Source: Lepidurus packardi
Taxonomy: Eukaryota; Arthropoda; Branchiopoda; Notostraca; Triopsidae
DNA length: 64,000 nt
NCBI GenBank assembly: GCA_023053545.1
Contig: JAKZAN010000001.1
Coordinates: forward strand, 6,220,565-6,284,564
Direction of reading: 5' to 3'
Shown piece after piece: positions 48,705 through 63,999 of this stretch. Each line of letters starts with the position of its first letter. Positions within the stretch are counted from its first letter, which is position 1. The notes below the pieces were generated by a model that did not search any database, was not told where the DNA came from, and saw only the letters and a list, made by a program, of their open reading frames with translations. A program made the position numbers and the translations under genes.

Positions 48705-48718
48705 ATTGGTCCTTTTTG

Positions 48719-48750
48719 GGTTGGCGTTTTGCCCTTAGGGCAAGCCAACC
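48719..48750. repeat. Imperfect hairpin GGTTGGC...GCCAACC
   Basis: GGTTGGC pairs with GCCAACC and the inner TGCCC with GGGCA around TTA. It is GC-rich in AT-rich surroundings. Helitron-type elements carry a subterminal 3' hairpin, but no element end was confirmed here. Confidence 0.55.
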
Positions 48751-48759
48751 TTAAGCGAG

Positions 48760-49190
48760 CGTGCCTTGGTCGTTTAAGACAGCTTCTATGCATTTCAAAT
48801 GACATTCCTGATGTCCCTGTGCAAATAAAAATCCCCGTGCATTTCAAATGGGACTTCACATTCCTGTGTCCCTGTTCAAATAGTGTCCTATGCAAACAAG
48901 CTTTGGTCGTTCTAGACAGTTCATGTGCTTTTCAAGTAGGGAACAAACTTCGTACGCTGTACCTGGGCAAAGAGGGGTTAATTCCTAAATCCAATATCCC
49001 ATTGGGGTTTCTTGCTTTGCCTTCAGCAGGCCGTCTAATCACTACATCCAAGTATATCGAACATCCAAGATTAATATTCAACAACCATGCAACATTAACA
49101 TAAATGCAACATTCACATTCATCCAATATTACAATTCATACAAGATTACAATCCATCCAATATTAACATCTTACATCCATGCAACATCTT
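48760..49190. repeat. Degenerate short tandem repeats
   Basis: Two loose families: a roughly 65-bp unit with GCATTTCAAATG / CATTCCTG.TGTCCCTG (48785-48950), then repeats of CATCCA.ATTA / ATGCAACATTAAC (49067-49190). Confidence 0.5.
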
Positions 49191-50909
49191 TTCCTACATC
49201 GAACAAGTTCTAGCTCGACGCTCTCGGATTATTGCCTATGCCTTATAGCTGTGACGGGTCTGGTTCCGTGTAACTTCAGACTGTCTTTTCCAACTTGCAT
49301 TTTTTAATGAGACTTAAGGATCTCGGAGTAAAAGAAACGACGTGTGCGAAAGTTAGGGAGTCGGTCTGTAGCGTAAAGGAAAAGTAGTCAACGTAGCCAG
49401 TTCAAATATTTGACGACACTGTAATGAACATAAAGCATACACAGAAGAGCATACACAGAAGAATTATTAACTATACAAGTATAAAGAGAAGTACATATAT
49501 AAGAACCTGAAGGTATAATTACTTGTACGAAATCGTAAAGCTGGCAGGGTAGAGTTGGAATAGGCTGTAGGTTCGTAGTGTTGACGACTGATGTCTGCAC
49601 ATTCGTAGATTTTCGACTTCCAGAACGATATATATATATTGAAGTGAAAGCCCTAAAAACATCTACCAGAAGCTTGACAACATCTCCTGAATTTTGTCCA
49701 ATATACTGTAGACGCAATCCTACACGACGACCGTTACCACGGCTCGGAGTGCTGCCCTTTCACTCCAACACGTAATGCAAACCGCGTTACTGCCCAAATT
49801 CACATTCTTCTTGGACACACCCAGTGTCTCCAACCTATTATACTTAGCACAAAAGTATATGCTTACTACTCAAAGCTACCTAACGTACCTATACCCAGTT
49901 CATTCTTAACATGCACACATTAACTCCAAGTGCTCCACAACCTCACGGTCACCTGCAACTTTGCCTCGTTACACATGGCATCTCCTAATGACGTCTACTT
50001 ACCACCGAATCGTTACCATAGACTTCTACAATCCAAAACGGAATACAACATACAATACACACACGAAAAGCTGCATACAGTACACTATGGATTTACTACA
50101 AGCCCCACTCCACAACATTCCACAAATATTTTCTCCGAAGGAAGACACGATTGGATACACTATGCCCATGCAAGTCAGAGACGTTATTATTATTTATTGC
50201 ATTTCAATAAGGTCAACGCCTCTTCAAAACTGACATATTCAAACTTCGCTGCTCCGCAATTTACGTCATTACAAATCCACCACTCTTCAACGGAACAACA
50301 ACAAGAATCTTTAGTCGCAAAATTCGACCAATGGAAAATCTCCACGAAAGTCCCAAACATCTCTACGGTTCTCTTTCATATATTAGAGACGCAATCCTAC
50401 ACGTTCATCTTTCCCATGAGTCCCAGCCCCAACTATTTCAACTTCTTATTTCAAACAAGTCAACTCACATATCCACAAACGCTTCGGAATCCCGCAATAG
50501 GCTCCAAAACAACATTTTCTATCCTGCAACTCTCACTGTCCAAACTGTTATCACAATTTCAAAATACTTCAGTCTTTCTAAACAGTTCAATGATATGAAA
50601 TACAATCCAATTAAAATCCGATACAGAAAAACAGTAATAACTCCTCTATAATATCTACACCAACCTAATCCAACCTAATCCTCCCGACGCCAACCCTTTC
50701 CGGTGTTTCCGCGCCGGCTTGTTGTACTGTTTTCTGGTGGTGGTTAGTTGGAAAAAGAGAGGGTCAGTCAGAAAGAGTTAATAAGAGAAGGTGGAAAGCG
50801 ATAGTCGGTTGAGTTGGAGCTGAGTTGAGTTGTCAATGTGCTGGAGAAAGAAGTTAAGCGGCAGTATAGTTATAGCGCCGAGTTATATAGAGGAGTGATT
50901 AAGCAACTG

Positions 50910-51100: not shown

Positions 51101-54100
51101 TTAAGTATCAGGTAATTGAATGTGAATAATTTTGTGATCTGAATAGTATGTTTCATACACACCAGTTTTAGGATTGTGTAAGTTAGAGTAAATATGATCC
51201 AACGTTGATGAATAGTCGGTTGTATAGGAAGTAATATGCTGTCTTAGAGTCAGGGGTTTGAGTATGTCGGCAATTTTGGCAGCGTATGTAGTGTGAGTAT
51301 GCATATTGACATTAAAATCGCCCATAAGTATAATTCTTTCAAAGGAGCTGTCAACGTCTCGTACGAGTTGCTCCAGTGCGTCGTACAACTTTTCTATATT
51401 GTGCCCATGATGTCTATATAATACGTATACTGCTAATCGTAATTCCTTAACATGATAGGTAGCTACTTCAAGGTATTTGTTGGAACACAGACGAGTAAAA
51501 ATTCCAGTAAGTTTGGAATAAATAACGATTCCATAAGGTGAATTACCCTGGTGAGTTGTAGCGAAATCCATACGGTGTAACTGGAAGTCTGGTAAGTTAT
51601 AGTCGTTGTCTCTATCAGTTGTGCATAAACGAGTTTCACACATGGCAAATATAGCGGTCATTGCGATGAAAGGATCACATAGAATGTCGGGAATGTGTTT
51701 TCGTAATGAGACGACGTTTAGGAACGCCACGATTTTTGTTTCAGATAGAACAACAGATCTTACGTCCTCCAGTGTGAGTTTTTCAGGATTGCTTCGGAGA
51801 CGATCCACTTCATTTTTTATGTCGGAAGACACTTTAATACCGGATTCATTAAGATCTTCAATGTAAAGGCCATCAAGTCGTTTGGCTCTGCTGATCGCTA
51901 CGTAATGCATGTTGCATGTTGCGTGAGCCAAGTTAACAACCACCTGCTCCATCGTTTGTCCTTGAGCACGATGAATTGTTTTTGAGCTATTAGGTCTTAA
52001 CGGGTACTGGAGTCGCTCGAATTCTGTTCTAAGGAACGTGTATCTACAAGTTACAGGGAATACAGGTGTCCATTGTTTTGAAACTGTGCAGTCTTGTTGG
52101 TATAATTGTAGATATTTGTCACGGCAATGCTTACCCACAGAACTGTCTTTAAATTCTACCCAAATGGGAGCCTGTTTCGAACAATGTAATATAGGACACG
52201 TGTGCTTAAAATTCGCGTCAACATTGTCTTTACCTAGAGGTGGTAAATTTTGTGGTAATCTTCTAATTGTACATTCGGATCCATTCGCCATACCATCACT
52301 AACGTCAGAGTTAATATTATACTCAAAAGGCAAATCAATTGCTATGAATAAATAACGAATACTGTTACTACTAGTAGTTTTATTAGGTAACTTCTTTAAT
52401 AAAGAATTTGTATCGATACCCTTACAGCCTTTTATGGGCATATCATTACTAACTATTAAAATTTTATCATTTTGCGCATTTTCCCATTCTTTTTGGTTGT
52501 AGCAGTCAACGTCGTTATTTCGGTAAGTAATCCGTTGTATATGTGGAGGGGGCTTCGGAGAAATTCGGCTACGCAATAAGGAAGTATCTTCCTTTGTATG
52601 TTTTCCTTCACGTAGACGGTTCAGTAGCTCGGCGAACTTTAAGTCTTCTTTTTGTCGCATAATTTGTTGTAGTTCATAAATTTTAAAGTTGTCTATCCAC
52701 AGATGTTGGGCTAAGCAACGTGCCCCTGTATTTGAATATTTGAAAATAGGCTGGGCCTTTGTAGGTGGTAGCTGAAAGAGATCACCGACACATAATATTG
52801 ATTTGCCTCCAAATATTCGGGAACAGCCAAATATTTCTTTCAAACGGAAATCAATATAATAAAGCATATTTATTCCAACCATGGAAACTTCGTCTATTAT
52901 AAAAAGCTGTACGTCACGGAATAATATGGCTAATTGGGAGCGAACTTGTGAATTTAGGGACAAAAAAGAATTGTTAGCATCAAACATTTTGCCAGCTGGA
53001 ATATGAAACGTGCTGTGTATTGTTGATCCGCCTACACTGAATGCTGCTTTGCCTGTGTAAGCTACTATTACAACTTTCTTTGTATCAGGATTCGAGTTAG
53101 GAGCCTTATTATAGTACCGTGTTAAGCACGCGTTAATAGCTCGAACAACCACACTTTTTCCAGTCCCCGCTCCACCGCTTAGGTATCTGCAATAGCTTCC
53201 AGTTTTTGTTTTATGCATAAATAACAGATCTAAAACAAATAATCGTTGTTCTACATTAAGACTACGCATTAAACTGTAATACTCTTCGTCTTGTAATCCG
53301 TAATGTTCTATTACCCTTACTGCCTTCCCTAGTCCCGCATCATCAACGCTGCAAGTCGGTAAGTCTCTTCCTATATCTGGAATTGGCATACAGTTATACT
53401 CGGGATCGTACATTTGATTAGGGGCATTTTCTTGCTCTTGCGTTACTTCTTCGTCTTCCGAGTCTATATGGCTGAAATAGTTACGATCAAAAAACTCGTG
53501 GAGAGGTTTCTCTAAAATATCGTCAACAGTAGAACTGTAAGGTTCATAGATGTCGCGCTCTTTTAGTACACGACGGAACACGTTATTCTGAAAATACTTC
53601 GCTTCGTAGGTTTTTTGGTCTTTCAGTTCTTTGTGGTCTCGCCATGGCCAATATAACATCAGTTTCGTGTGGTAATATTTCTCGGGGTTACCCTCACGAC
53701 GATAATTCATAAAGCGTAGGATGCGTTGTTTCGTTCTAACTGTGTATTGCGAGTTTTTGTCAGATTTCTCGCAATTTTTTGAATAGTCTTCGAATTCATT
53801 ATCACTTGTCATATCATCTGAAAATTCAGCCTGTTCTAGACAATAACCGTCATTACCGATCACAGGCGAATAATTTTTTACATATGCATGTGTGTATTTA
53901 GTTAAATATTCTGCCAAGCTAATATCACTGAGGTGTTCAGGTCTCCTAGAATATCTGTCGAAGAAGTTTTCACTAATTACGTTTTCATTATCATCGTTCA
54001 TCTTCTCTATAACTGCGAAAGGTTTTGTGAGTACGACTCTTTCCTCAGGTTCGCACGTATTTACAAAGATGACAGATCTGCTAAACTTTCGCAGCGGTAA

Positions 54101-57100
54101 TTGTAGAATTAAGAAAACAGCTTCTTGTACACCTACTTCTGATGAGTTCAGAAATTTATTGCCCAACATCCTGAATTTTTCTCTGATACTAAAATTGCCG
54201 TCGCGTACCTCTTGCACTACGTTACGAAGAGTCTCACTCATTCCTCTCTGAGACTTGGTCATGTAGCTCGCAATATAGGAGGCAGCAGCGTAAGCATCGT
54301 CAACGTACTGTATATCCATATTCGCATTCCAAAACAGGAGAAGTAATGGATTAAAAGCATTTATCATACATTCATTGGGGGCACGCTTCAGAAATAGTGT
54401 TTTCTTTGGAATACGTGATCGTAAAGCACCAACATAGGTTTCTAAATTAAATCCGCATTTGCTTAAAAATTCGGAGAAAGTGGTTAAGTTTTCACTGGGT
54501 AGTTTCATGATTTCTTCTACTTTTTTCCATGCAACTCTGTATTGCTGTAACTTAACTTTCGGCTCTGCAGAATCCAATGGCTTTAAAATCATTGTATATG
54601 GCAGTGGAGGTTTCGGAAATCCAAAGCGACATTTGTTATTTTTACCTTTTCCTTTACATGTAAAGGAATGCTTGTGTTTCTGTACTTCTTTTGCTATAGA
54701 TGCTGAAGCGCCAGATAATTCGCACGTGACGTAGCAATCAACAAAACGGATTAAGCTTTCCTCGTACGACAATTCGTCTTGAAAATCAGTGGGGCACGGC
54801 TGATTATGACACCACACGAACATATGTATGTGAGGAGACCCGCGCTGTTGAAATTCCACGCGAATTGCATAATCTTTAAGTTTACCGACTGGTTCCGTAG
54901 AGTTTCGTAAAAATTGTAATAGTATATCTACACGGTAGTTAAAATACCTAGCACAGGTAACACTGTCTTTCAATAAACGACACTTATCCAACCAAGTTAA
55001 CGAGAGAAGCTCTTCCTTCGTATAAGAACGACCATCAACTGTTCTTCCTAATATGCGTAAGAGTTCTAACCATCTAGTTTCAGCGGCTGAAAAGCTGAGA
55101 AAAAAAGCCGGTGGGCCAACTTGACGTATCATGGCAAATAAATCATGACACATACGCTGGTAATAGGGAGGTGATCCACGGACGCATCTTAAGAAATTAA
55201 AACCTCCATCGAATTGTAGTGAGTGCAAAATTTCTGGATTTTTAAACATTTTAGCATTAAATGTGGTACCCGGTTTTCTATCCTTTCCTTTGACAATACG
55301 TGTTGCGAAACGCATAGTGTCCGCTATCTTTTTAATCTGTATCTTCTTGAGTTTGAAGAAAATATTAACCTCGTCTTGAGCAACACGACGGTCAACATTC
55401 TGTAACTCGGCCTTGCAAAGAGAACTATAGGAGACCGGTCGACAACGATAACGGCGCCCTTGTAATGCAATATTGCAATCAATATTATCCAACGATGCTA
55501 GTCTAGAGTCTTTCTTAACACACACGGGCCTGGCATATCCGCAGAAAATATGCGGAAACCCCAGCTCTTCACAGTATTTATCAGTAAGCACACCGAATGG
55601 TCTTTTGTTTTCTCCGGGTGCTATGGAATGAATTACATCGTCACCCTCACCGTGAAGAAAGTTTTCATTTAGTAATACAGTATCCATGTTTACTCTAGCA
55701 ATGTCTTCAGAATCCTCTTGGTCACTACTACCGTCACACAATTCGTTTTGTGATAACGTAGTGTTCTTATCATCTTCATGTTGCACTGATCTACCGTCAA
55801 TTACGCATTCTTCCGCACTTATGTGCGGCAATTCTTCTTCCGCTACAAACTGCCAGTTTTCTGCCAAAGAAATACCATGTTCAATAAATAATGGGCGTCT
55901 TACCAACAACTCTGCTGCGTAACGAACTAGATTTGGACGTACAGTTTCCACAAATTCAGGGCGAGTATATTCTAGTTTTCTTTTTAGAGCAACTTTTATT
56001 GTCTCGAAGTCACGAAACGTGCGAGGTAATTCGGTTATAGTTTCGTCTATGTCATGAGGTATATTAATTACATTTCCCTTCAGTTTCGATTGCCCACCCT
56101 GGCGTTGTGGCTGCAATTTTAAGAACATGAGACGGGGAGACACTAGCCTTCTTTCCATATCATTTAAAACTGTAAGCTCGTCCGGTCTTTCCGGGAAAGA
56201 AACTTGGTTTAATACAGATACTGGAGGTACTTCGCCTTTTTTTATATACTTATAACAAGTTCTGCAAACATATTGTTTATATACCGAAGTGAAACATTTT
56301 TCAAATAAATTTCTTGCACGATGACCTTCCTTGCCAGTTAACGGTTCTACGTTTTTCCGCAACATTTCTACTGTACATAAAGTGCGTCTAAAAAATAGCT
56401 GACAGCAACAACCACAAACAAAATCGGCTCCCTCAGCAAGTAAATTTTTCAGTTTTCGCATGACTTTATCTACGGATTCAGTTTTAGTCTCTGTTGTCGT
56501 GCAAGTTTCTGTCGCGCGACTGTCTATTGAAACCGTATCGAAACATTTTAGTGTATTGTGGTAGTCAAGATCCTTCCGAGTACGGTCAATGGTTCTTTGA
56601 TTTCTATGACAAAAGACCTCAGGGTGCCCTTCATGCGAACAACTACATATGATTTCATTAGAAAAGCAACTGAGGCATCCCCTTTTAGCGTCAACAATAC
56701 AATCCAGTGCTAGGAAACAACAGTTTTCGATTCTGCAGGGAGTCACAGCTAAAACTAGTGAATATATCGTAAATTCATTTGAATCGTTCCATCCTATGAA
56801 ACATTCATGTATTATACTCGGAAATTCAGCTACTGTACTGTTCCTAATTACGGCACACCTATCGTACGACGTGCAATAAGATCCACAACTACGCGTGCTA
56901 TTGTGACTACAAAATATGCTTAAAACGTTATCTTCTGTTCTGCAGACGGCAATGCAATAACTCCTATATTGTATAACGAAATAAGTACCCTCGCGCAACG
57001 AAAGACTGAAATAGGTACTAAATTGTGAAGGCGAAACAGTTGTGCACAATACCTTTGAGAAATACGTGTAAGACAATCCGATGTTAGGAATGCAAAATTT

Positions 57101-59069
57101 ACTAGGAAAGTTGTCAACAGATATCCGAACATTGTTATTAGCAAATAAGTTGTATACAATTATGCCTACTTTTCGGATATTTCCAATCATGTCTATATCC
57201 GCAAGTTCATTGTTATGTAAGCCTCTAGCTGTTGCGTAACGCAAGAGCAGGAAAACAATGCTGAGGGGCACAGACTGGTCACATTTTCTAGGAGAATAGA
57301 AGTTCTCCGCGTAATCAACACCTTTGCATAAAACCAAATGTCTGGTAAAATTGTCTCCGCTTTCAAACTGTACGTTACAATCGTTGCACTTTAAATGTGT
57401 GACACCGAAAGATAAAAACCGACAATTACGTACATGTTTTCGAAATACTCGTTCTCGAACAAAGACTACACCGCAACCTTGGCACAATAAATTTTTAGTC
57501 TGGCTACCAGAGGAAGAATTACAAGTACTTTCAATATTGTTTACCATTAAATTCGTAGTTCTCGGGAGCTTAGATTGACCAACACTAAATTCTAGATAAC
57601 CCTCCTGTCTTGTCTGCTCGCCTTTAGTATTATTCTTGGTAGTTCGGTTATTCGAACTTTTGATCACCTCTTGTACAGACGGACTAGAGAAAAGAACGGG
57701 ACACACACACAAATGTCTGCGTAAATTAAATGAAGAAAATAACGCCTGGCTGCAGTGTTCACATGTAAACTCTTGCACATTACTGATCACAGGCATTTTG
57801 CTGTCAACTATTCCTTTATTGCAATTACGTCTTTGCAAATGTCTGTTAAAGTTGTAAACAGAAGAAAAATGCTGATGACATGAAACACAGTCAGTCCTTT
57901 TACTAGAATTACCAGCTTTACATAATGCTAAATGTCTGCTCAAACCACGGCGCGAAAGAAAAGTTCGTTGGCACGTTTCGCAAACAAACTGGTCATGTTC
58001 ACCTTTTTTCTCAATGACAGGTTTGTGGCGTCCAAATTCTACATGTCCTTTTTCTCCTGAAAATGAATGATCAAATGCAGATATGTTTGAATCACCTTTT
58101 GAATCGTCAACGATCAGAGCAAACGGCTGTGGTAACGTTTCTGTGAGATCCTTGGCCAAATTAATGCAGGGAGAAACACCGTTTCTATCTTTCGAACAAT
58201 CTTCCATTACTTCAACATACTTTAATGAAACTTCAGAGTTATTTTTTTTAGCATGTTTTATTGTTAAACTCTCATCAACTTCGTATTTCCGTTTTCTCAG
58301 AATATTCAAATTATTCTTGGTATCAAATTTCGATGTCGAAACATCTACTAATTGTGGGTTAATATTAATAGCATTCAGATCAGTCCAATTACCCGATGAG
58401 ACACGTACATGATTACATGCAACCCAACTGCACTTATCTACAGTTGTCAACGTATCATCCGGTCGTGCACCCCGAATTTCATGACAACAAATAGGAACAA
58501 TATCATACTGTGGATTACCACTGAAACCATACATCCTCCGTAAATACTCAAGCACTTCATCAAAAGTAAACTCTAACAGGACGGCAGTACCGCTTGTGCA
58601 ACGCTGACCAAACTCATCACGCGCATGCGAGTCAAAAACAAAATATCTTCCACTACGCTCCATGATACTAGTACAAAATGAGCAACTAATAAAAAGCACT
58701 CCTACACAGTGTTCCGCAAGCTTCACTGCATCTTCCAAAGACCAATGCCAATAACGTGTTGTACATGGCCATATAAACCCAAAAGCAGCTTCACCATGCA
58801 CAAAGGTCTTTAATACACCTAAATCTCCACAACCAACAAATCGAGGCAATTCTGAAAAGCTAAAGAATGCATGAGCGTGCTTATACGTACGATAAATCTC
58901 GTCTCCAATTGACATTATCTGGTGCATGTCATGCTCAATCCAATTTGGCAGGGAAAACAAAATAACTCCATGCAATAGAAACAAAAGCCATGGGTGTGCA
59001 TTGTACACCACGACTTTCACTCGTACCAACCGAATCTTGTGAATATCGAGCCTTGCAGACGAGCCTCAT
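51101..59069 (-). CDS. Helentron Rep/helicase/endonuclease polyprotein (one-base frame break near the N-terminus)
   Basis: Main frame 59029-51101 is 2642 codons but starts at TTG. In main-frame numbering: protease-like residues DSH at 133-135 (YFVFDSHARDEFG); five C-x2-C...H...C zinc fingers (346-570); a degenerate second protease fold (about 580-715); a DUF6570-like Cys-rich region (866-980); Rep HUH motif GSPHIHMF (about 1395) with the Tyr pair YIASY (about 1583 and 1587); PIF1 helicase with Walker A GGAGTGKS (about 1951), Walker B IIDEVSM (about 2041), GDLFQLPPT, TIHRAQGQT and AISRAK; EEP nuclease with CETRL (about 2462), GDFNVN (about 2568), LDHI and SDH at the C-terminus. A better ATG at 59069 opens a 44-codon frame with the protease Cys box (VQCTPMAF, Cys24). 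It is displaced by one base and stops at 58935. HUH nicking and helicase unwinding drive rolling-circle transposition. All other catalytic motifs look intact. Confidence 0.88.
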
Positions 59070-59096
59070 ATTTAAATGTTAGAGTTACCAATGAAA

Positions 59097-59396
59097 CGTG
59101 CAACTAATAGCAAAATGTAACCAGAAATACAAATAACTATACCTTCCAAACGTGCAACTAGACGTAGGCTCTGAAAAGAAAACGACGAAACTGAAAATAC
59201 AAACAGCAACAGCTAGAAAAACCTAAGTAAACTACGTTATGAATGCTCTACACAAAATATCAAAAAACACGTACTTGCAATCCAACGATGTATGTATGCA
59301 ATATTATAATAATAGTCGCTTCCTTCCTACAATTCCAAGTATTGCAATTCGGACATGAAATAGTACCGTAAACGTAACAATGAAATTATATCGTTT
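59097..59396. repeat. Tandem repeat unit 1 upstream of the Rep gene (300 bp)
   Basis: Begins CGTGCAACTAATAGCAAAAT. The next unit starts exactly 300 bp later with the same words in the same order (GACGTAGGCTCTGAAAAGAA, GTATGTATGCAATATTATAA). It lies immediately before the Rep start, so it may carry duplicated promoter or replication signals. Confidence 0.92.
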
Positions 59397-59662
59397 CGTG
59401 CAACTAATAGCAAAATTTAACAAGAAATACAAATAACTATACCTTCAAAACGTCCAACTAGACGTAGGCTCTGAAAAGAAAACGACGAAACTGAAAATAC
59501 AAACAGCAACATTAAGTAAACTACGTTATGAATGCTCTACACAAAATATCAAGAAACACGTACTTACAATCCAACGATGTATGTATGCAATATTATAATA
59601 GTCGCTTCCTTCCTACAATTCCAATTATTGCAATTCGCACATGAAATACCGTAAATGTAACA
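59397..59662. repeat. Tandem repeat unit 2 (about 266 bp)
   Basis: Second copy of the unit at 59097, differing by small deletions and point changes. It ends where RPA module B 3' flank begins. Confidence 0.92.
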
Positions 59663-59664
59663 AT

Positions 59665-60314: not shown

Positions 60315-61370
60315 TTATTTTTTCTTGGTGACGTTGACGATTTCTTTTTTTTCTAGGTCTACCGTGAAGTCGAAGTCTTTTGTCGTTAGTAATTTCACGA
60401 TGACAGCATTCGCAGTGTCTGGAGTCAGTTGTAGAGTTTCTTCTTGTTTGCAGAAGTCTTTTAGTATGGTTTCTGTCATCGATGCTTCGATAATGTTATT
60501 ATCGTTGAAGAAACCGACTGTGCCTTGGAAAGTTAGTGGAGTCGTTTGTCTAAGTTGAATTTTTTTGCAGTTTGTGCACGTAATGGTAGGGTCATCGTTA
60601 TCTGGAATGGTCGGTTGTCGTTCTGTTTTTTTTTTGCAGGCTAGGCAGGTTTGGAAAATACCAATGTTGCAGTGGGCTATGGCTTCCAGTATGATGGGCT
60701 CCGTTGTGTCGTCTAAAATGGGTTGCTGGATGTCCAGTTGGGCTTCTGTTCTTGTAAAGAACGATTGCTGCGTCAAGGCGAAGTTTTGATAATCTTGATT
60801 ATAGATGACATCGGTAATTTCGTAAACTTTGTTTTTTTCGATAGTAACTGTTTGGTTTTTCCAGGTAATTAGTGTGGAAGTACAGGTATCGTCTCCAATT
60901 GTTATTTCGCGGAACGTTTGCCCTTTGTTCGTTGTCTTCTCTTCGCTAATGTTTTGGATTTGAACGATGATTTTGTAACGGGTGTCGGGAAACTCTATAC
61001 AAGTTTGAAGTGTGGCTTGTTGCTGTTTTCTTGGCGAATAATTAAATTTGAGCGTTTGATTTGTCTCGCTGATTTGCGAAGATTGGGTAATCTTAATAAG
61101 ATCGTATTTAGTTCTTTTTTGTGGAGTCTGACCTGAAGGTGAGCTATTCGGTAGGATTTGGATGGTGATGGGTATCTTGGCGGTCGAATAACGTTTAATT
61201 CTGCTATAGGAGCCAGCAATAAACGACAAACATTCTTCGTATGTATTGTCCGACGTCTGCAGAAAAAAGCGAAAATTTTGGCCTGGAATTTTGGTGTACT
61301 TCGATGGACTCTGGTTTTGGCGCAAAGGGGTTATGTCATGGACGTACCCGGTGTAAGCGTCTGCTCCCAT
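60315..61370 (-). CDS. RPA-like single-strand DNA-binding protein, copy B (transposon-borne)
   Basis: Uninterrupted 351-residue ORF with ATG at 61370. It has the same architecture as the copy at 45043-46086: start Y/F-x-HDI plus NQSPSK and NFRFFLQTS, middle YEITDVIYNQDYQNFALTQQS, and a zinc ribbon C-x2-C-x19-C-x2-C (Cys242, 245, 265, 268, beginning TCLACKKKTE as in copy A). Proteins A and B are similar end to end but substantially diverged, with the cysteines kept, so both look maintained by selection rather than recently copied. A GTAAGTAA donor at about 61470 matches one before copy A and suggests a conserved 5' UTR intron. It lies upstream of the Rep gene on the same strand. Role as for copy A. 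Confidence 0.8.
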   Translation of the reverse strand: MGADAYTGYVHDITPLRQNQSPSKYTKIPGQNFRFFLQTSDNTYEECLSFIAGSYSRIKRYSTAKIPITIQILPNSSPSGQTPQKRTKYDLIKITQSSQISETNQTLKFNYSPRKQQQATLQTCIEFPDTRYKIIVQIQNISEEKTTNKGQTFREITIGDDTCTSTLITWKNQTVTIEKNKVYEITDVIYNQDYQNFALTQQSFFTRTEAQLDIQQPILDDTTEPIILEAIAHCNIGIFQTCLACKKKTERQPTIPDNDDPTITCTNCKKIQLRQTTPLTFQGTVGFFNDNNIIEASMTETILKDFCKQEETLQLTPDTANAVIVKLLTTKDFDFTVDLEKKEIVNVTKKK

Positions 61371-61578: not shown

Positions 61579-62222
61579 ACTGTTTTCTGTCATTCCGTGT
61601 GAGGTCTTTTATAGTCGGGTTCTATCGTAGAGTTGATGCCTGGAAGAGTAGGTTCTTCGTAAAGTCAAGTTCGGTCAAAGTCCAATCATGGAGGCAAAGG
61701 TTCAAGTCAATTAGTCAGGTCATTTTCTTCCTTTTGTTAATGAAAAGGGTACAATTTAGAAAGAAAAAATTTCAAAGGTGTACCAGCAGTTAGGGATGGT
61801 CAATTGAAATTTGTATCCTTAGTTCGAGTGTCAAAGCACATTTTGAAGTTTTCTTGCTTAGTAGCTGGATGCAGTTGTCTTATTGTTTGCCGCTTTTGGT
61901 GTGTTTTTAAAAGGTGTCACGTTGTGGAAGGCAGTTAAATTGCAGTTGGGTTATGCGTATATCGAGTTAAAATAGAGAAAAATACATGATGGTTTTGTAT
62001 TATACGGAAATCCCAAACTATTTATCTAAAATGCAAGAAATATATATTATGTACCTGAGGTAAATCTTTGAAAATGAAAACATCATATTTGTTTTAAAAC
62101 ATACCAATATTTTGAAATGTACTAAAATTGGTAAAAAAAGTGTTGACCGTTTAATTGGGTGGGAGGGTCCAAACGTCGTGAAATTTGTATGACGCCGCAT
62201 TTATGGACGTTCCCTTATTAAT
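61579..62222. repeat. Direct repeat copy 1 (644 bp), 5' flank of RPA copy B
   Basis: From ACTGTTTTCTGTCATTCCGT to CCCTTATTAAT. It matches 63197-63999 nearly base for base, and both copies are 644 bp once the MITE and its duplicated target in the second copy are removed. It contains the probable promoter of RPA copy B. Confidence 0.93.
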
Positions 62223-63196
62223 AGGGAATGCTTTTCCTTAAAATAGCTTTCGATAATGATCGAAGCCATTTATTCGTAGGGCAATTCGTTTTACGACTTG
62301 ATGATTTTAGAATGGTTGGAAATTTTTTGGATTGTTATTTTTACAAACGAAATAGAATCGGTGGTATCTATGCCGGTATTGGTGCTCATGGGAAATGTTG
62401 TCATATTCCATACCTACTATAAGGAAATACTTATAGAACAACATTATAGTTTCACCTGATTATTGCTGAGCTGCGTAACTGTCCGTGTTAAGAACGTGGA
62501 ATATTCGATTTGTTATTTATGATTAATAGCAGAAAAATGTATTTAAAATGTGTGATCTGAATGTACATTTTACTGTCACTGGGTGTTTGCGGAGTATATT
62601 ATTGTGTCTGTCTTTTTGCGATGCGGAATTTTGTACTGCTTAGCTATATGATGTGATTATGGCATGTTTTGTAGCTTCGTATTTACAAGTCTGACATTTG
62701 AATGTAAACAACTTTATGATCTGAATATACCGGGAGTTGAACAAATTTTTGGGCTTCGGCACAGCATGTATAAATTGGTGTGGTTGGGAGTTTTCCTTTT
62801 TTTATTTGTATTGTGTGTAAGTGGCGTATTCCGTGTAGCCTGCAGTAATAAGACAAGGTACGTATTTGAAAGTGCTGTCGATCGAGGGATTACTGAAAGT
62901 AGTGAATTTTGTTGTTAAAGCATTTATTTTGTTAACGTACCGAAAGTTGCAAAATTCTTACGTTTCAGTTCAAAAAGGGTGTAGGGGACTTTTTTCTTTT
63001 TGTCGTATGTTTACGTTTGTACTCATCAGGGCTGAAGCTACTCGATGTCTTGATACGACAGGGAATTTCGCCATAGTTTATGTGGACTGTAAGAAACAAA
63101 AATTATATTCATGACGTTATAAGTGAAAGAGTAACGTGGTTAAGGTCAATAAAAACGCTTACCGAAAGTTGAACAAATCCATATGTATCGGTCCAA
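62223..63196. other. Spacer between the two 644-bp direct repeats
   Basis: 974 bp, AT-rich. Short open frames on plus show no recognisable domain. The left junction carries a small inverted repeat TTCCCT...AGGGAA (62210-62229). Confidence 0.5.
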
Positions 63197-63999
63197 CTGT
63201 TTTCTGTCATTCCGTGTGAGGTCTTTTATAGTCGGGTTCTATCGTAGAGTTGACGTGTGGAAGAGTAGATTCTTCGTAAAGTCAAGTTCGGTCAAAGTTG
63301 AATCATTAGGAGAAAGGTTTAAGTCATTAGTCAAGTCATTTTCCTCGCTTTGTTAATGAAAAGGGTAAATTAAGAAAGAAAAAATTTCAAAGGTGTAGAA
63401 GCAGTAGCGACAGTCAATTGTAATTCTCATCCTTATTTCGAGTGTCAAAGCACGTTCTGAAGTTTTCTTGCTTGGTAGGGATAAGGGGTGGACTGGCCTA
63501 TGGGGCATTGGGGCAGGTGCCTCATGTGCCGGCTCAAATGCCCCATGCGGCGGCTCAAATTCCTTCTTTATTACTCAGCGGCACCGGCAGGTAGAAAATC
63601 CCCATTGCCCGCTGTAGAGCCAGTCCGCTCCGGGTAGGGATGCAGTTAATTGTCACTGATGTTTGCCGCTTTTGTGTGTTTTTAAAGGGTGTCATGTTGT
63701 GGAAGGCAGTTGAGAAATTGTAGTTGGGCTACGTATGGAGTGGAAATATAGAAAATACTTGATGGTTTTGTATGACAGGGAAATCCGAAACTATTTATCT
63801 AAAATGCAAGAAATATATATTATGTACATGAGGTAAATCTTTGAAAATGGAAACATCGTATTTGTTTTAAAACTTACCAATATTTTGAAATGTTCTAAAA
63901 TTGGTAACAAAGTGTTGACCGTTTGGCCGGTTTGGGTGGATGGGTCTAAATGGCGTGAAATTTTTATGACGCCGCGTTTACGGACGCTCCCTTATTAAT
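63197..63999. repeat. Direct repeat copy 2, interrupted by a MITE
   Basis: Second copy of the 644-bp repeat, with a 151-bp element plus an 8-bp target duplication inserted. No RPA-like ORF follows it on its 3' (left) side within the spacer, so it is a partial module or belongs to a gene truncated or moved. Confidence 0.92.
63483..63633. mobile_element. hAT-type MITE, 151 bp
   Basis: Ends AAGGGGTGGACTGGC and GCCAGTCCGCTCCGG form imperfect terminal inverted repeats around a GGGGYGGACTGGC core, as in hAT elements (CAGGGGYGGAC). An 8-bp direct repeat GTAGGGAT flanks it (63475-63482 and 63634-63641). The paralogous repeat at 61579-62222 lacks the insert at this point and so acts as an empty site. 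There is no coding capacity, so it is non-autonomous. Confidence 0.88.

Follow-up and report, generated by a model that had tools for sequence, protein, structure and literature searches.

A Lepidurus packardi Helentron with a VTD-type deubiquitinase domain and a second, probably related domain that appears to be catalytically inactive

Described VTD domains and the Helentron in the window

The closest described counterpart of the locus analysed here is the zebrafish Helitron DrT1, for which Erven et al. 2022 (PMC9741609) describe two viral tegument-like deubiquitinase (VTD) domains, both active in their assays, the second of which is represented by 8ADD. According to the passages of that paper used here, the zebrafish Helitron VTDs cut K48 and K63 chains and, in the case of two of them, K11 chains, and residue E377, mutation of which impaired activity, is a candidate for contacting the ubiquitin tail. 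The same passages state that, several pseudogenised sequences excepted, no catalytic residue is missing from the VTDs of Helitrons presumed to be autonomous; a figure legend refers to both active and inactive domains, and DrT2 is described as having a single active VTD. Inactive VTDs of insects (iVTD), such as Drosophila CG32436, in which at least one active-site residue is missing, are placed close to the Helitron VTDs in that source (PMC9741609). For typical animal Helitrons, a zinc finger is named as part of the RepHel protein in the part of PMC4067079 used here.

In the current work, a stretch of 64,000 nucleotides from the genome of Lepidurus packardi (referred to as the window) was analysed. 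Its main ORF (Table 1) encodes, in this order, a first VTD domain (VTD1, from NWIEHD onward), zinc fingers, a second domain named VTD2, DUF6570, Rep, a PIF1 helicase and an AP-type endonuclease, with an HIH motif at the end of the Rep domain (54838-54818) and the Walker A motif GGAGTGKS of the helicase at 53176-53153. Because the matches to PF14214, PF05970 and PF03372 all exceed their Pfam cut-offs within a single ORF, which thus combines Rep, a PIF1 helicase and a C-terminal AP endonuclease, the element is a Helentron. A pattern scan of the linker between VTD1 and VTD2 returned five zinc fingers in the family of the window copy (family A) and four in each of the related families B and C, the Pfam zf-C2H2 match on the main ORF protein being just under its cut-off. 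The original prediction was borne out as to the layout of this Helentron protein, in which a papain-type protease domain is followed by five zinc fingers and by a second domain that is probably related to the first. The reading favoured here, to which we assign a probability of roughly 0.7, is that this Helentron combines a VTD-type deubiquitinase (DUB) domain and five zinc fingers with a VTD-like VTD2 that lacks catalysis and would serve as a binding or scaffold module.

Table 1 Features of the Helentron in the window (positions of the window)
Feature	Position	Strand	Basis or detail
Main Helentron ORF	51101..59065	-	2654 codons, stop to stop
VTD1, N-terminal piece: ORF with ATG at 59069 and Cys box VQCTPMAF	58935..59078	-	
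VTD1, remainder in the main frame, from NWIEHD, including FDSHARD (58636-58616)	58418..58945	-	
Five C2H2-like zinc fingers (last ligand Cys), between VTD1 and VTD2	57326..57982	-	Pattern scan
VTD2, predicted inactive VTD-like domain	56633..57352	-	Residues, profile tests, codon-position constraint
DUF6570 (PF20209)	55901..56239	-	Pfam E=3.4e-12
Helitron_like_N / Rep (PF14214)	54818..55183	-	Pfam E=4e-22
PIF1-type helicase (PF05970)	52586..53260	-	Pfam E=1.4e-23
AP-type endonuclease (PF03372), Helentron hallmark	51134..51574	-	E=1.1e-5, 25.8 bits, cut-off 24.5

Copies were surveyed across the 108.6 Mb genome (344 contigs), all copy counts being lower bounds. Family A comprises at least 14 copies with VTD2, of which 13 score identically over this domain and one slightly lower; its frame spans 2658 codons in eight of 14 copies, 2654 in the window copy and 972-2222 in the other five. 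The window copy is 99.8-99.9% identical to five aligned family-A copies over the aligned long stretches, and the element has been amplified recently in this genome. Family B likewise comprises at least 14 copies with VTD2 (46% identical to the VTD2 of family A) and has a full-length frame of 2722 codons, and family C at least two (37% identical to family A), in both of which the main frame is broken off after 1342 codons, so that this family does not represent an intact element. Family D (two copies) contains VTD1 and the transposition domains; VTD2 was not detectable in it in a search of this genome, and is therefore dispensable for some Helentrons of this host. Family F, a decayed relic with stops in VTD2, was found at three loci and, in a later search, at a fourth, and stops in VTD2 also occur at two further relic loci, one of which (L022) is B-like.

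Several observations were made on the surroundings of these elements. The family-A element has its 5' limit at about 59667 (four loci), and a direct repeat of about 290 bases, common to other copies, is located upstream of the main ORF and within the element, at 59097-59664. Beyond that limit there is an RPA-like ORF (60315-61370, 351 codons), which in Pfam gave only a sub-threshold PHD_4 match. Part of this region (60455-61279) shares 99.8% identity with the tail of a family-B deletion derivative (L025:1236-4958, 1241 codons). This derivative retains the first ~65 residues of VTD1, joined in frame to a region farther along the protein; the remainder of VTD1, the fingers, VTD2 and the beginning of Rep have been lost by internal deletion. 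On the other side of the main ORF, 2 kb of the window (48718-50718) are missing from the family-A copy L011 at the corresponding point of the element, owing either to a nested insertion in the window or to a loss from L011; positions 49649-50734 match locus L019 at 99.4% and positions 49360-49651 match locus L020 at 99.7%. A pair of direct-repeat blocks (61579-62222 and 63196-63999), 79-93% similar and ~1.6-1.8 kb apart, occupies the end of the window. Short runs of TTAGG, the arthropod telomere repeat, are present ~6.4 kb from VTD2 in at least 12 of the 14 family-B copies (contigs C1, C3-C6, C19, C22 and C32), as if the family-B element contained a microsatellite of telomere type. At the end of contig C3 there is a longer array of TTAGG, as would be expected of an arthropod.

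The first domain and its frame in the window copy

The first protease domain is, as judged from profile comparison, a VTD, i.e. a viral tegument-like DUB of the papain type. A VTD1 profile built from four families (A, by way of L011, B, C and D) matched 8ADD with E=8.1e-18, and the window protein alone matched it with E=3.2e-6; the match of the same four-family profile to a herpesviral large tegument protein was weak (E=0.071), and Pfam Herpes_teg_N remained below its cut-off in family D (E 5.4e-4) and family C (E 0.014). The Cys, the Asp-x-His and the candidate ubiquitin-tail Glu are present in all five VTD1-type rows, including 8ADD. The OTU family, under which the domain had originally been labelled, was rejected, given that no Pfam OTU match was obtained at E up to 1 and that 8ADD was matched instead.

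In the window copy, the Cys codon of VQCTPMAF (59000-58998) is located in a frame of 47 codons, with an ATG and an early stop, which differs from the main frame containing FDSHARD. The original prediction had silently joined these two frames into an in-frame first copy, whereas VTD1 of the window is split; moreover, both the Cys box and FCSHNST of the second segment fall outside the interval 57150-58640 to which the two copies had been assigned. The remaining motifs and the spacings were confirmed, with FDSHARD, QSVPLSIV and FCSHNST all being present in the main frame and the spacings amounting to 122 and 121 residues, the former being the Cys-to-Asp distance in those copies that have both residues in one frame. 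In each of the 13 further family-A copies that were scored, the Cys box and FDSHARD are read in one frame; the match to the window copy falls into two pieces, and the frame change is absent from each of the five other copies aligned at this position. A spliced or programmed frame change as a trait of the family was rejected on the basis of those 13 copies. The window copy thus carries either a private frameshift within VTD1 or an assembly error and, being frameshifted within this domain, probably makes no active VTD1 enzyme, barring an assembly error. With the VTD1 and VTD2 profiles, no relatives were confirmed among the viral contigs of IMG/VR, and a comparison of VTD2 with phage records gave no match.

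Active-site residues of the second domain and its relationship to VTD1

In VTD2, QSVPLSIV is encoded at 57277-57254 of the minus strand, its Ser codon at 57274-57272 specifying the residue originally called Ser586 (a numbering that starts at a TTG at 59029), and FCSHNST at 56914-56894 of the same strand, with the Cys at 56911-56909 and the His at 56905-56903, all in the main ORF; the second of the above spacings is the distance from this Ser to this Cys. Across families A, B, C and F, the latter represented by a row taken from the decayed relic, the nucleophile position is occupied by Ser in four of four, the Asp position by Cys or Thr in four of four, and the His is kept in all. The candidate ubiquitin-tail Glu is replaced by Asn or Lys in the same four families (Asn in the window copy), and each of them retains the Pro of the E-L-P motif. 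The predicted absence of both the nucleophile and the Asp from the second segment is confirmed by these residues, and the substitutions, the conservation of which had been proposed as a check, are conserved across these four families, all from one genome. Three MAFFT modes agree in placing Ser on Cys, Asn/Lys on Glu, Cys/Thr on Asp, His on His and Pro on Pro, when the four VTD2 rows are aligned with the five VTD1-type rows.

Considering that Ser and His are both kept in all four families and that an Asn directly follows the His in three of them, VTD2 could be imagined as a different hydrolase, one which employs the invariant Ser and His, and perhaps this Asn, in place of a Cys-Asp-His triad. 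Such an activity is, nevertheless, very improbable: the Gln located upstream of the Cys in all five VTD1-type rows corresponds to Asp, Glu, Pro or Asn in VTD2, as assessed by eye in a loose alignment. In VTD1, this Gln presumably has an oxyanion role. In addition, the zebrafish enzyme was inactive following replacement of its Cys, Asp or His by Ala, according to the part of PMC9741609 used here.

VTD2 is probably a remote VTD homologue and kin of VTD1, the sequence evidence for this kinship being moderate, and the motif spacing alone being weak evidence beyond chance. Local profile-profile Smith-Waterman comparisons of VTD2 with VTD1 were run in four set-ups with 300 column shuffles each; the observed score stayed above every shuffle in all four (z 4.1-4.6), although in one of these the closest shuffle attained 30.2 as compared to 30.6 observed. 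The segment matched in these tests is a stretch of 36 residues in the middle of the domain (VTD2 58-93), which contains neither the Ser nor the His. At a lower gap cost, none of 200 shuffles reached the score (z 5.1) and the match extended over VTD2 58-154, still without the Ser, so that C148 and H150 were aligned with the Asp and the His of VTD1 without any guidance; at a gap cost of 8/0.5, one of 200 shuffles reached the score. As a control, 11 other segments of the protein yielded z values of -1.6 to 2.05, as compared to 3.8 for VTD2 (two rows, one of 60 shuffles).

The alternative, namely that VTD2 is an unrelated cysteine-rich domain whose motifs and spacing resemble those of VTD1 by chance, is unlikely, the local profile score above all 300 shuffles, the colinear anchors in three MAFFT modes and the lower-scoring control segments all speaking against it. 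Nonetheless, this alternative can draw on a number of results. The HMM-HMM comparison proposed in the original prediction did place the two domains in register from the Cys box to the His motif (hhalign), yet with a probability of only 1.2% and E=0.045; a search of the PDB with the VTD2 profile found no VTD structure; and BLASTP of VTD1 against VTD2 returned nothing significant. Semi-global runs were unconvincing as well, with five of 200 and 14 of 200 shuffles reaching the score and the alignments ending in a meaningless misaligned overlap, and VTD2 contains many conserved Cys residues that are without counterpart in VTD1. Since VTD1 and VTD2 are only 16-21% identical, the pair may be old, or VTD2 may have been acquired separately, and the internal duplication within the element that had been put forward is not demonstrated.

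Constraint on VTD2, its possible role and comparison with known systems

VTD2 is free of stops in all copies scored of family A (14/14), family B (14/14) and family C (2/2), i.e. in 30 of 30. Alignments of VTD2 among these three families contain 0-4 gap columns in ~240 at a protein identity of 37-47%, and differences at codon positions 1/2/3 amount to 0.33/0.29/0.60 between A and B, and to 0.45/0.36/0.61 and 0.38/0.33/0.61 in the other two comparisons. For the zinc-finger linker, the same comparisons give 110-151 gap columns and 0.55-0.60/0.43-0.55/0.58-0.66, respectively. Fourfold sites in VTD2 differ at 55-73%, so that silent change is near saturation. Because its frame is open, indels are few and the first two codon positions change less than the third, VTD2 of families A-C is, by these measures, a constrained and presumably folded module rather than a product of decay, and it looks like a conserved pseudo-DUB. 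This constraint was observed in three families, two of which (A and B) have full-length-frame copies, and the preservation of a catalytically dead domain in related families suggests that it still does a job.

The designation of the second copy as apparently dead, in the sense of decay, is consequently not upheld. That VTD2 is a decaying copy without function could be argued from the loss of its catalytic residues, from its absence in family D and from the stops in family F and in the B-like relics, but this view is scarcely credible in light of the open frames, the rarity of indels and the low rate of change at the first two codon positions among families A-C; family F does look decayed, while for the other three families decay is contradicted by the constraint.

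By analogy with the zebrafish Helitron VTDs, VTD1 would most likely strip ubiquitin off the transposase or off host factors present where transposition takes place and might thereby protect them, an idea taken from the part of PMC9741609 used here. VTD2 would most likely function as a non-catalytic module, either binding a protein partner or setting the arrangement of VTD1 and the zinc fingers, and has probably lost the usual grip on the ubiquitin tail. A further reading is that VTD2 still binds ubiquitin or a ubiquitin-like protein but leaves it uncut; ubiquitin binding was one of the roles suggested in the original prediction. Binding of this kind is common among pseudo-DUBs, and the retained Pro of the E-L-P motif would be in line with it; binding of the ubiquitin tail is, however, disfavoured because the Glu equivalent to E377 is lost in all four VTD2 families, and we regard this role as improbable when compared to that of a partner-holding or scaffold module.

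With respect to DrT1, the element of the window is alike in being a Helentron-type RepHel with two VTD domains, its VTD1 matching 8ADD with Cys, Asp-x-His and Glu in place; it is unlike DrT1 in that both VTDs of the latter are active, whereas VTD2 is without the Cys, Asp and Glu, and in that five zinc fingers separate the two domains (PMC9741609, passages used here). The combination of Rep, PIF1 helicase and a C-terminal AP endonuclease within a single ORF is shared with the Helentrons of PMC4067079, which in the part used here are described with OTU-like proteases and RPA as extra proteins, VTDs being outside the scope of that paper; the RPA-like ORF of the window, in contrast, is located outside the family-A element, past its 5' limit. 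The insect iVTDs resemble VTD2 in being VTD-type domains from which one or more active-site residues are missing and differ from it in being located outside a recognisable transposon, this likeness being based on their description in PMC9741609 only.

Helitrons with VTDs in tandem and insect VTDs without activity are already known (PMC9741609, within the passages used here), while a second VTD that is inactive yet conserved inside a Helentron, for which a limited literature search found no other report, appears to be new, provided that its fold is confirmed. It is conceivable, though rather doubtful, that inactivation of a VTD arose and was selected inside Helentrons, with a pseudo-DUB serving transposition, and that the testis-expressed insect iVTDs descend from such a dead second domain and not from an active transposon enzyme. 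Were the favoured reading of VTD2 to hold, the use of a pseudo-DUB to a transposon would become a testable question, VTD2 would represent a possible source of the inactive VTDs of insects and, being present in four families and constrained in three, it would constitute a counter-example to the retention of catalytic residues by Helitron VTDs.
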